This document shows, in pieces, positions 57,116-61,141 of a DNA stretch of 64,000 bases (position 1 is its first letter; each line of letters starts with the position of its first letter). The stretch lies in contig JAPLKS010000022.1 of assembly GCA_026387915.1 (NCBI GenBank), positions 62,001 through 126,000 on the forward strand, given 5' to 3'. The notes beneath the pieces were generated by a model. It saw only the letters and a program-made list of their open reading frames with translations, did no database searches and was not told the origin of the DNA. This DNA is from Gemmatimonadota bacterium (GTDB lineage: Bacteria > Gemmatimonadota > Gemmatimonadetes > Gemmatimonadales > Gemmatimonadaceae). Made by a program: the position numbers and the translations under genes.

Positions 57116-57147
57116 CGTTGGCGCAGCCTATTTTGGCCGCGCCAACG
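57116..57147. terminator. Weak hairpin between convergent operons
   Basis: CGTTGGCGC (57116-57124) and GCGCCAACG (57139-57147) pair exactly with a 14-base loop holding TTTT. The right side overlaps the last codons of the molybdenum subunit on the minus strand. This could stop both transcripts, but it lacks a following T-run. Confidence 0.4.
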
Positions 57148-59302
57148 CCTCCTTCAGCCGCGCCTTGGTGATCGGCAGTTGCACCACGCGAGCGCCCACC
57201 GCGTCAAACACGGCGTTCGCCACCACAGCGCCCATCGTAATGATTGCGGGCTCACCACCGCCCATCGGCGGTTTGTCAGACGCCTCGATAATCACCGCCT
57301 CGATCTTCGGTACCCACGAGAAACGTGGGATGGCATAGGTGCCGTAGTTCTTGTCGAGCACCACGCCGTTGCTGAAGCGCACTTCTTCGGAGAGCGTGTA
57401 GCCGAGTCCCATGGTGATGCAGCCTTCAAGTTGCTGCCGCGTGCCGTCAGGGTGCACGACGAGCCCCATATCTTGCGCGCACACCACGCGCACAACCGTC
57501 ACCTCTCCCGTCTCGCGATTCACCTTTACCTCGGCAATGCTCGCCACCCACGTGCCAGCATCTGTTCCGCAGGCAATGCCGATGCCGCGTCCGCTCGGTG
57601 CGACTTTCGGCACGTAGCCGAACTTGGCCGCCGCCGCTTGGAGTACGCCTCGCATCCGTGCGTCGGTGAGGTTCTTGAGACGGAACTCGAGCGGATCAAC
57701 GCCAGCTTTCGCCGCGAGCATATCCATGTGCGACTCGCGCGCAAAGACATTCGCGTTGGCCCCAGGCGCACGCCACGGCCCAATGCCAAAGGGATGCAGG
57801 TCACCCGAGTTCCCCATCCAGCCGCCACGCACGAGAGTGCGATGATTGGGAATCTCGTATCCGTGCGCCGCGCCGCGATCGCCTGCGCCGATGACTGTGT
57901 AGTCCCACGCGACGATCTTCGAGGCACTGTCGAGCCCCGCCTTGATCTTGATGACGGCGGCCGGGTCGAAGGTGTCGTAGAAGAACTCTTCGTCGCGTTC
58001 CCAGATCACGCGCACCGGTACGCCTGCAACCATCGCGAGCCGAGCGGCTTCAATGGCCTGCGCACCCGCACTCTTACCGCCAAAACCGCCACCCACGTAC
58101 GGTGTGATCACGCGAACTTTTTCCGGCGCGAGATTCACGGCGCGCGCCAGCTGTGTCTTGAGGGGGAACGGCGTCTGCGTGCTCGCCCATACTGTGAGCT
58201 TACCATCGGCAAACTCGGCGACCGCAGAATGCGTTTCCATCGGCGCATGCGCGACGTAGCCTTTGAGATACGTCTGCTCCACCACCACTTTGGCACCCTT
58301 CAAAGCGTCGGCCACCTGCCCAGCTGAACCGGTGACATTGCCCACCGGAGCCTTGGCTTCGAGATGCGCGAAGATCGTACGGTCATTGAGGGGAGACGGG
58401 GATGCACCGTAGGTCGCCTTGATGAGACGCATCGCCTTGTCCGCTTCGTCGCGATGGGCATGCAGCACGGCCACAAGTTCTCCGGCGCGCACCACGCGCG
58501 CGCCTGGCACAGACTCGGCCGCTGTGGTGTCGATGTTGGCGAGTACTGCACCGTGCGCCGGAGGACGTACGATGCGGGCGTGCAGTGCACCTTTCGGCGC
58601 AATATCGCCGGCGTACTTAGCGCGTCCGGTAACTTTTTCAATGGCGTCTCGACGAGGCACCGATGTGCCCACGATGTTCATGGCAGAAACCGCTTCGAGC
58701 GGCGCAGGCCCTTCGAGACGACGTTCGATGCGTTTGCCCGCGGTGAGTTCGCCGTAGCTCACTCGCTTGCTCGCGTCCGTGCGTGACTGCACGATGCCGT
58801 CCTTTACCTCGAGCGACGCAGCGGGGAGTTGCAACCGGTCCGCAGCCATCGCGACAAGCGTTGCACGCGCTTCGGCGGCGGCGGCGCGAATCGCCGGCCC
58901 GAGTTGGCGAATACTGAGCGAGCCGAAGGTTCCCATATCGATGGGGCAGAGATTGGTATCGCCCAGCACAATATCTACGGCACTGATCGGCACGTTGAGT
59001 TCATCCGCCACCAACTGTGGGAAGGAGGTGCTGATCCCCTGTCCCATTTCGATCTTGCCGACGTACGTGGTCACGCGCCCATCGGCACCGATGTGCAGAA
59101 ACGCATTGAAGTCGGTGCCAGCGCGTTGCTGCGCTGCGGCCGCCGGCAGTTCAGGACGCACTGGGCCGGGACGCATCGAGAACGCAACGAGTAGACCACT
59201 GCTCGTGACCGACAAGAAATCGCGGCGATCCATCCCACTCAAGCCGTCGGCGTGCGAGGCGTCGGCGCTCAGCGTATGAGGCACGTCGTTTCGCGGCGTC
59301 AC
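57128..59302 (-). CDS. Molybdenum hydroxylase large subunit, TAT-exported (second system)
   Basis: Start taken at GTG 59302, which overlaps the small-subunit stop as GTGA; ATG 59233 is an alternative but would cut the N-terminus to MDRRDF. 724 residues. Twin-arginine-like DRRDFLSVTSSGLLVAF follows. Family blocks: GGGFGGKSAGAQAIEAARLA (about 409), GGWMGNSGDLHPFGIGPWRAPGANANVF, and the C-terminal MGGGEPAIITMGAVVANAVFDA with the catalytic Glu (about 682). Related to but clearly different from the gene at 16898-19159. Electron acceptor and substrate unknown. Confidence 0.88.
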   Translation of the reverse strand: MTPRNDVPHTLSADASHADGLSGMDRRDFLSVTSSGLLVAFSMRPGPVRPELPAAAAQQRAGTDFNAFLHIGADGRVTTYVGKIEMGQGISTSFPQLVADELNVPISAVDIVLGDTNLCPIDMGTFGSLSIRQLGPAIRAAAAEARATLVAMAADRLQLPAASLEVKDGIVQSRTDASKRVSYGELTAGKRIERRLEGPAPLEAVSAMNIVGTSVPRRDAIEKVTGRAKYAGDIAPKGALHARIVRPPAHGAVLANIDTTAAESVPGARVVRAGELVAVLHAHRDEADKAMRLIKATYGASPSPLNDRTIFAHLEAKAPVGNVTGSAGQVADALKGAKVVVEQTYLKGYVAHAPMETHSAVAEFADGKLTVWASTQTPFPLKTQLARAVNLAPEKVRVITPYVGGGFGGKSAGAQAIEAARLAMVAGVPVRVIWERDEEFFYDTFDPAAVIKIKAGLDSASKIVAWDYTVIGAGDRGAAHGYEIPNHRTLVRGGWMGNSGDLHPFGIGPWRAPGANANVFARESHMDMLAAKAGVDPLEFRLKNLTDARMRGVLQAAAAKFGYVPKVAPSGRGIGIACGTDAGTWVASIAEVKVNRETGEVTVVRVVCAQDMGLVVHPDGTRQQLEGCITMGLGYTLSEEVRFSNGVVLDKNYGTYAIPRFSWVPKIEAVIIEASDKPPMGGGEPAIITMGAVVANAVFDAVGARVVQLPITKARLKEALARPK

Positions 59303-59778
59303 TTGGCCGCTCCCGCCATCACCGCGGCGGCTTCTTCGATGGCATCTACAATGCGTAGGTGCGCACCGCAGCGACAGAGATGTCTGTCCATCCCCTCCAT
59401 GATTTGCTCGCGCGTTGGCCGCGGATTTTTCGCCAGGAGCGCGTGGGCGCCGAGGATCATCCCTGGCGTGCAGAAGCCGCACTGGAAGCCCGCGTGCTTT
59501 ACGAAAGCGGCTTGAATAGGATGCAGATGATCGCCGGTGGCGAGCCCTTCGATGGTGATGACTTTTTTTCCGTCGGCGAACGTAGCTTTGGTTGAGCACG
59601 CGCGCACGGCTTGGTCATTCACGAGTACGGTACACGATCCACAGAGCGCTTTGCCGCATCCATACTTGGTTCCGGACATTTCAAGATCGTCACGGAGCAC
59701 CCAGAGCAGCATGCGCTCGTCGTCAATGGTGACTTTGCGCACAGCGCCATTCAGCGTAAATGAAATGGTCTTCGTCAT
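59299..59778 (-). CDS. Molybdenum hydroxylase [2Fe-2S]2 small subunit (second system)
   Basis: 159 residues, ATG 59778 with GGGAGAG upstream. Cluster ligands Cys41, Cys46, Cys49, Cys61 (GCGKALCGSC...AC) and Cys100, Cys103, Cys135, Cys137 (QCGFCTPGM...LCRCG). It precedes and overlaps its large subunit in the same order as the first pair. No FAD subunit or maturation factor gene is next to it. Confidence 0.9.
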   Translation of the reverse strand: MTKTISFTLNGAVRKVTIDDERMLLWVLRDDLEMSGTKYGCGKALCGSCTVLVNDQAVRACSTKATFADGKKVITIEGLATGDHLHPIQAAFVKHAGFQCGFCTPGMILGAHALLAKNPRPTREQIMEGMDRHLCRCGAHLRIVDAIEEAAAVMAGAAK

Positions 59779-59873: not shown

Positions 59874-60317
59874 CTACCGAAGTTGCTGAAAGACGCTCAG
59901 CCGGTCGGTGACCTGCCAATGTCCCGTGAGCCGATCACCGTCTACGGAATAGATGGTGATTCCCGACGTGTGTACGGGCTTCCCGGTGGCAGGAAAACCT
60001 GGGAGGTCGGCGAGAAAGGTGCCCGACCAACGCCAGGTCACGGCGATGCGGTTTCCTTCTTCGAGCATCATGTCGACGCTGAACTTCTGATCGGGAAAGG
60101 GCGCGCGACTCGTCACGAGTCGGTGCTTGAACCCATCGCGCGTCAGCGTCTGTCCGTGCCAACCATCACCGGGATCGTGGTGGATGGTGTACGACTCGGC
60201 GAGATACGTATCGACGGCGTCCGCGTTGCCGTTGTCCCACACGTCATGCAGGAATGCAGCAATCAGCGCCTTTGCCGGTGACGACGCAGTGAAAGCGGCG
60301 GAGGCGAGGTCGGTCAC
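59874..60317 (-). CDS. SnoaL-like (NTF2-fold) ester-cyclase-type protein
   Basis: 147 residues, GTG 60317 overlapping the DUF2239 stop (GTGA), with CAGGAGACCGC upstream. The pattern LIAAFLHDVWDNGNADAVDTYLAESYTIHHDPGDGWHGQTLTRDGFKH and VTWRWSGTF matches the SnoaL/NTF2-like 'predicted ester cyclase' group. Such proteins are small, stand-alone and of mostly unknown ligand. Here it is co-translated with DUF2239 from a tightly controlled promoter, so it may make or remove the signal for that protein (speculation). Confidence 0.82.
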   Translation of the reverse strand: MTDLASAAFTASSPAKALIAAFLHDVWDNGNADAVDTYLAESYTIHHDPGDGWHGQTLTRDGFKHRLVTSRAPFPDQKFSVDMMLEEGNRIAVTWRWSGTFLADLPGFPATGKPVHTSGITIYSVDGDRLTGHWQVTDRLSVFQQLR

Positions 60318-60892
60318 GCGGTCTCCTGTGCGGAGTGACTAAAGGCGAGGTGCGTCGCGTGGGTGCGCACGTCGTGCGGCCACTCCCGGATCAGCTCTCC
60401 GAACCGTGCATGATCGCCGGCGAAGAGTGCGCGGGTTGCCTCTTCGAATCCGGGGAGATCGCCGGCCATCGCCAGCATGAAGTGGTATGCCGCTTCATGT
60501 GCGTGCCGCCGCCGATCTTTTTCGCCACCCGCACGACGCGCCTCCTCTACGAGTTTGCGCAGTGTGACGGACGCGCCCCCTTGTTGGGTGCTGAGCCATT
60601 CCCAGTGACGCGGCAACAACGTGACCTCGCGCGGCACCACGCCAAGTTTGGGACGTCCCCGTCCGCGCGGCGGTTCGGCGGGCGGCGAGTAGCGCGCCGT
60701 GATCTCAGCGTCGGTGCCGCGGGTGTCCACATCAATCGAGCGGCCCGTTTGGTTGTTGAAGATGAGGAGCGGGCCGTCTGCGTTTGCATCGACGGCAGCA
60801 CGGTACGCGACGGCGATCTCCGCCAACGTGCCGGAGGCGAGGCGTCGAAATCCGCCAAAAAGCGCGTAGGGCTGGGACTGGGAACTAGGCAT
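60314..60892 (-). CDS. DUF2239 protein; AT-hook-like plus RHH-like segment, possible new regulator
   Basis: 192 residues from ATG 60892. Recognised as DUF2239 by its LPRHWEWLSTQ and AMAGDLPGFEEATRALFAGD blocks. Between residues 75 and 84 it reads PRGRGRPKLG, an AT-hook-like core (RGRPK). Residues 88-120 read as a beta strand (REVTLLPR), a first helix (HWEWLSTQQ), a GG turn, and a second helix (ASVTLRKLVEEARR), the order seen in ribbon-helix-helix DNA-binding proteins. The C-terminal 75 residues are helical with conserved Trp and His. The promoter holds two TATCCGGATA palindromes. Autoregulation is my inference, not a known function. Confidence 0.8.
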   Translation of the reverse strand: MPSSQSQPYALFGGFRRLASGTLAEIAVAYRAAVDANADGPLLIFNNQTGRSIDVDTRGTDAEITARYSPPAEPPRGRGRPKLGVVPREVTLLPRHWEWLSTQQGGASVTLRKLVEEARRAGGEKDRRRHAHEAAYHFMLAMAGDLPGFEEATRALFAGDHARFGELIREWPHDVRTHATHLAFSHSAQETA

Positions 60893-60925
60893 GTCGGAGC
60901 GGCTTCTATATGATAGGGATATCGA

Positions 60926-60954
60926 ATATTATTATCCGGATATATATCTGTCAA
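60926..60954 (-). promoter_or_regulatory. Sigma-70-type promoter of the DUF2239-SnoaL operon
   Basis: On the minus strand a perfect TTGACA (plus 60949-60954) is followed after 17 bases by TAATAT (plus 60926-60931). Transcription would begin about 60919, leaving a leader of about 25 bases before ATG 60892. The region is sharply AT-rich compared with its surroundings. Confidence 0.75.
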
Positions 60955-60968
60955 TATTATCCGGATAA
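60932..60968. promoter_or_regulatory. Twin TATCCGGATA palindromes, candidate operators
   Basis: TATCCGGATA at 60933-60942 lies inside the spacer of the promoter. TTATCCGGATAA at 60957-60968 lies just upstream of its -35 box. Centres are 25 bases apart. Both share the flanking AATATTA. The placement over and beside the -35/-10 elements fits direct repression. Confidence 0.75.
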
Positions 60969-61141
60969 ATAAGCCACCAAACAGCTGTTCGCTAAGCGAT
61001 GGCTCAAGCAGAGGCAGCCTAGCCCAACCGCTAGACTTTCAAGCCCGAAAAAGGCGCGCGTAGCTCTGCCCGTCTCTCTCACGCACTCCATATTGTTGGG
61101 GTCGCAGTAACCGCTCCAAAAAAACGCCTACCCCCCGGCTC

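Follow-up and report, generated by a model that had tools for sequence, protein, structure and literature searches.

A paired palindromic operator conserved in front of DUF2239 genes points to a candidate family of autoregulatory repressors

The DUF2239 operon and its promoter

The window analyzed here, a 64,000-nucleotide stretch of a Gemmatimonadota genome, carries an operon with a DUF2239 gene and a SnoaL-like gene, the features of which are collected in Table 1. Its first gene encodes a protein that matches PF09998 over the full length of the profile (positions 2–182 of 182; 2e-77, 259.5 bits against a gathering cut-off of 25), which makes it a member of the DUF2239 family. On the 3' side of the SnoaL-like gene, beyond a gap of 95 bp that holds no operator, lie genes for two subunits, one of the [2Fe-2S] kind and one large and molybdenum-hydroxylase-like (57128–59778, minus strand), which may or may not be part of the operon.

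Table 1. Features of the DUF2239 operon in the window, and genomes with operator pairs unlinked to DUF2239
Feature	Position or genome	Strand	Basis
DUF2239 CDS, 192 aa, proposed autorepressor	60314..60892	-	PF09998; AF2 mean pLDDT 89
N-terminal beta-beta-alpha-beta(+alpha) domain, residues 9-68	60689..60868	-	AF2 secondary structure
AT-hook-like arm RGRGRPK, residues 76-82	60647..60667	-	GRP invariant in 75 sequences, then K/R
Strand-helix-helix segment, residues 86-125, putative DNA-reading element	60518..60637	-	Invariant residues; fragment model
C-terminal helical bundle, residues 126-191	60320..60517	-	AF2, pLDDT ~98 over most
Putative operator site 1, TTATCCGGATAA, directly 5' of -35	60957..60968	.	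Conserved in orthologues
-35 element TTGACA	60949..60954	-	TTGAC kept at same place in orthologues
Putative operator site 2, ATATCCGGATAA, in spacer, abutting -10	60932..60943	.	Conserved in orthologues
-10 element TAATAT, 17-bp spacer	60926..60931	-	Sequence reading
SnoaL-like protein, 147 aa, translationally coupled second operon gene	59874..60317	-	PF07366, 1.8e-27
Unlinked pair 5' of MATE efflux pumps	G033, G453		
Unlinked pair 5' of carotenoid oxygenases	G222, G238, G303, G306		
Unlinked pair 5' of alpha/beta hydrolases	G388, G389, G460		G388 by sequence resemblance only
Unlinked pair 5' of GIY-YIG-like genes	G221, G229, G253, G260, G306		

The promoter is built as a preliminary description of this DNA had it, with TTGACA and TAATAT 17 bp apart, one palindrome 5' of the -35 element and another in the spacer, all within an AT-rich island (GC of 0.30 at 60900–60979 versus approximately 0.63 for the window). 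Both palindromes contain TATCCGGATA, at 60958–60967 and 60933–60942, and these are its only exact copies in the window, where four places with at most one mismatch were found against 0.53 expected. In the whole genome (3.58 Mb) there are four exact places, versus approximately 0.6–1.4 expected; two are those of the DUF2239 promoter, and the remaining two lie within unrelated coding sequence and were rejected as sites. The chance expectation for two copies within 30 bp of each other is approximately 3e-5 per genome. The paired palindromes at this promoter are not a product of chance. A search of the same genome with the family consensus half-site, allowing up to two mismatches, yielded no second operator-spaced pair among 30 places examined with their flanks, and the DUF2239–SnoaL operon is the only target found there.

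A paired operator at DUF2239 promoters and at unlinked genes

Comparison of 162 DUF2239 promoters revealed the paired site WTTTTAYCCGGRTAATATTGAC-n-TTTTAYCCGGRTAWAAT, scored as two YCCGGRTR cores 20–32 bp apart, in 145 cases, as opposed to 190 of 3240 shuffled controls (5.9%); in the logo, site 1 reads WTTTTAYCCGGRTAATATTGAC and site 2 reads TTTTAYCCGGRTAWAAT. Nearly all of the promoters that lack the pair in its strict form carried, where read, slightly varied sites, and a few promoters (L010, L190) had a single one. Site 1 abuts the -35 element and site 2 runs into, overlaps or abuts the -10 element, with a usual centre distance of 27–28 bp, which is the distance that a promoter spacer of 16–17 bp demands. 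The sequences thus carry, in these same 145 promoters, a mark of autoregulatory local repressors, namely a conserved operator over the gene's own core promoter, and since both sites are locked to that core promoter, repression is the favoured direction of control. At one locus (L023/L254, G068:C35), four operator-like copies rather than two precede DUF2239, in steps of approximately 27 bp.

The central CCGG is nearly invariant, even in GC-rich genomes, and flank columns -5, -4 and +9, +10 are 100% A/T, never G or C; on one side of site 2 these columns coincide with the -10 element, so that their constancy there partly reflects conservation of the promoter and not of the operator. The palindromes do lie over core promoter elements, where AT-richness is usual, and could on that ground be taken for a chance or purely structural trait of such promoters. 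We give this explanation next to no probability, as it is already contradicted by the comparative data: the CCGG core stays nearly invariant where genomes are rich in GC, and none of the searched genomes without DUF2239 has the pair.

The architecture is widespread. Within the same order, 21 of 101 genomes have DUF2239, all 21 with at least one recognisable upstream site and most with the pair, and a scan of species genomes added 80 further DUF2239 loci, nearly all organized in the same way; at least 573 encoded relatives were counted in one such scan. The pair spans at least seven named phyla, its carriers including Pseudomonadota (alpha-, beta- and gammaproteobacteria), Verrucomicrobiota, Armatimonadota, Acidobacteriota, a Desulfovibrio and Deinococcota, and it accompanies DUF2239 on Deinococcus plasmids and on one 51-kb Paenibacillus plasmid. 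The proposal that related genomes would show the palindromes upstream of DUF2239 is thus borne out, in front of nearly all orthologues and across phyla. In operons in which DUF2239 comes second, behind a GIY-YIG-like gene (L018, L025), the pair lies at the operon promoter. Two phage records containing DUF2239 (H25, H26) resemble bacterial contigs, and a locus labelled Frankia sp. RB7 (L091) has a Bradyrhizobium-like DUF2239/GST/MATE arrangement and is probably mislabelled.

In a survey of 109 loci, the usual neighbours of DUF2239 were MATE pumps, GIY-YIG-like proteins, carotenoid oxygenases, hydrolases and GSTs. The SnoaL-like protein had been suggested earlier to be co-translated with DUF2239 and to supply or sense a ligand. 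Its ORF does overlap the DUF2239 stop by 4 nt, but SnoaL adjoins DUF2239 in only two of the 109 loci, those of the window's genome and of one congener, and is therefore neither a conserved partner nor a general ligand supplier.

Fourteen pairs were found that are not linked to DUF2239; every one of the 14 lies in a genome with DUF2239 elsewhere and precedes a gene of a family that adjoins DUF2239 in other genomes (Table 1). In G303 and G306 (loci L164 and L166), a remnant of DUF2239 stands between the intact pair and the carotenoid oxygenase, an intact DUF2239 being present elsewhere. The preliminary description had the self-regulation and missed these distant targets. Single half-sites away from DUF2239 in 16 genomes were rejected, as they fell within coding sequence where read. 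Efflux, hydrolysis and carotenoid cleavage, with GST, SnoaL and DUF1330, make up the list of targets, and this suggests that the system answers to a small compound that is probably toxic or hydrophobic. A protein of approximately 110 aa, annotated by PGAP as 'GIY-YIG nuclease family' and without a match in Pfam, is met repeatedly among the genes of the DUF2239 regulon, in all orientations (L244, L245, L018, L025, L167, L176), and also occurs with an operator of its own.

Candidate reader of the sites

Among 451 genomes, the strict pair was present in 108 of the 174 with DUF2239 and in none of the 277 without it (7/21, 78/102 and 23/51 versus 0/80, 0/98 and 0/99 in the three genome sets), and the reversed-pattern control gave no pairs in these scans. 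The pooled Fisher value, 3e-58, is not a true probability, since the genomes are related. In Acinetobacter, whose DUF2239 is approximately 40% identical, the proposed reading segment is changed to TLQKKHW..SASASAVIRK and the promoter carries TTTTACCCTGATAA twice in place of the usual operator; TTTACCCTGATAA occurs only at two DUF2239-promoter places in the 3.66-Mb record. This co-change of protein and operator concerns one lineage. The record itself (L247, NZ_CP077849.1), filed as an Acinetobacter baumannii 'plasmid', is evidently a chromosome.

We considered whether a separate, unlinked transcription factor could bind the paired palindromes, DUF2239 being merely a co-regulated effector. DUF2239 has no recognised DNA-binding fold and its binding is a prediction, and the same pair also stands before other genes, as such a factor would allow. 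It should, however, leave operators in DUF2239-free genomes, where none of 277 has a pair; no regulator gene recurs constantly next to DUF2239 in the 109 loci surveyed; and the pair goes along with DUF2239 from phylum to phylum and onto a plasmid, and changed together with it in Acinetobacter. We regard a separate factor as quite unlikely. A more specific candidate is the MarR-like protein of some DUF2239/GIY-YIG operons, which has an HTH (MarR_2/IclR, 5e-5) and is itself preceded, in some genomes, by a copy of the pair. Only 5 of the 109 loci have it next to DUF2239, and it was rejected as the true regulator on that count; most operator-bearing DUF2239 operons have no MarR-like gene nearby, and in L169 the protein looks degenerate, DUF2239 being intact elsewhere. 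That it reads the palindromes is thus very improbable. Co-occurrence, the unlinked targets and the co-divergence in Acinetobacter point to DUF2239 itself as the binder.

The protein has features that would suit this role. In an alignment of 75 sequences, G79, R80, P81, L83, G84, V85, E89, T91, L92, L93 and P94 are invariant, as are G105, G106, S108 and R112. The window protein has the stretch PRGRGRPKLG (residues 75–84), and its RGRPK core, singled out earlier as AT-hook-like, is conserved in the family: the invariant G79-R80-P81 is followed by K or R at position 82, and R76 is found in at least 90% of the sequences. The A/T-only operator flanks are the expected signature of minor-groove contact and fit an AT-hook-like arm.

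In the AF2 model of the full protein (strands 9–13, 16–21 and 42–46, helices 23–35 and 61–68 in its first part), an N-terminal alpha/beta domain, which we propose to be a sensor or dimer domain, is followed by a flexible linker with the arm, by helices 94–102 and 106–143, with no strand before them, and by a helical bundle. The isolated fragment was modelled as a single chain with a short strand (89–91) and helices 94–101 and 106–128, at a pLDDT of 76. The strands of ribbon-helix-helix (RHH) proteins pair only between subunits, and a single-chain model therefore cannot settle whether DUF2239 has this fold. A Pfam scan of 75 members gave no RHH match, and hhalign comparisons with RHH_1 and BrnA, repeated with 29 divergent members, were not significant, which does not exclude RHH; the register against RHH_1 was globally correct. 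Neither an hmmsearch of the PDB nor Foldseek/VIA revealed a homologue among solved structures, and sequence, profile and fold comparisons alike gave no match to a known DNA-binding family. The best VIA row, to Cas9 helices (Z 7.1), lies within the noise range that the tool states for helical models and was discarded. As no search gave an RHH relative, DUF2239 is not filed as an RHH member. The RHH-like segment of the preliminary description is thus compatible with the predicted strand-helix-helix and was linked to RHH by no sequence, profile or fold search; the models leave the RHH fold plausible, and DUF2239 may work like an RHH protein.

DUF2239 might also bind the operator and activate, or have another fold, for instance a new helix-hairpin joined to an AT-hook. 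The failure of fold and profile searches to group it with RHH proteins agrees with this, as do the invariant L92-L93-P94 and W97/W99, which are unusual for RHH. The predicted strand-helix-helix and the RHH_1 register, correct if insignificant, weigh on the other side, as do sites over -35 and -10, which favour repression. We judge activation or a non-RHH fold possible, and somewhat improbable.

Proposed repression circuit and its relation to known systems

DUF2239 very probably represses its own operon by sequence-specific binding to DNA, and the comparative sequence evidence thereby lends strong support to the earlier suggestion of an unrecognised, self-regulating DNA-binding family. As operators are shared between DUF2239 and pump or detoxification genes, it is most likely the repressor of both. 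Some observations count against this reading: a divergent second DUF2239 paralogue (L206, G209:C4), with its segment altered to GNLSAALRKL, has no operator 5' of it, a few promoters have one site, and DUF2239 gave no match to any known DNA-binding family. We propose that each palindrome TTTTAYCCGGRTAA would bind one DUF2239 dimer, whose conserved, RHH-like strand-helix-helix segments would read the CCGG core from the major groove, with the GRP[K/R] arm of each subunit inserted, in AT-hook fashion, into the A/T-only minor groove on both sides. Occupied sites 1 and 2, at -35 and -10, would block RNA polymerase. Repression would be lifted by a ligand, for which the N-terminal or C-terminal domain is the probable sensor, and the co-transcribed or divergent gene would then come on, in some genomes in trans as well: SnoaL here, and a MATE pump, carotenoid oxygenase, alpha/beta hydrolase, GIY-YIG-like protein or GST elsewhere.

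Viewed more broadly, we think it likely that DUF2239 constitutes a new cross-phylum family of ligand-responsive repressors that combine an AT-hook arm with a reading domain, RHH-like or new, and act through one unchanged operator, in cis and in trans, on genes for MATE efflux, carotenoid cleavage, hydrolases and GIY-YIG-like proteins. If so, a domain family that has had no known function would acquire one. The exact candidate operator and the list of target genes offer a route to the inducing ligand, and such a regulator, its operator being the same in Deinococcus, in Burkholderia and on a Paenibacillus plasmid, would also be a candidate for use as a portable genetic switch. A literature search with the DUF2239 name, the COG and the operator strings, in which few subscription journals were covered, returned nothing relevant.

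DUF2239 resembles RHH repressors (MetJ/Arc/CopG and the BrnA- and ParD-type antitoxins) in its small size and in the short palindromic operators in its own promoter, and, going by the fragment model, in a predicted strand-helix-helix with the G-x-S that opens the second helix. It differs from them in giving no significant profile, sequence or fold match, in having no toxin partner, and in the long second helix that runs into a C-terminal bundle and the additional N-terminal alpha/beta domain. With AT-hook proteins (HMGA, CarD-type) it shares the GRP core with flanking R/K and the A/T-only target positions; unlike them, it has one hook per chain, joined to a putative sequence-specific domain that would read CCGG. 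Regulators of the AcrR/TetR and MarR/MexR types are autoregulated local repressors of efflux pumps. Like them, DUF2239 adjoins a pump or detoxification gene or is transcribed divergently from one, with an operator over the core promoter and proposed autoregulation, but it lacks an HTH family match, and its cis targets vary by lineage whereas the operator is constant across phyla. The circuit of a local autorepressor and a pump is familiar, and the protein family, its operator and the breadth of both appear to be new.
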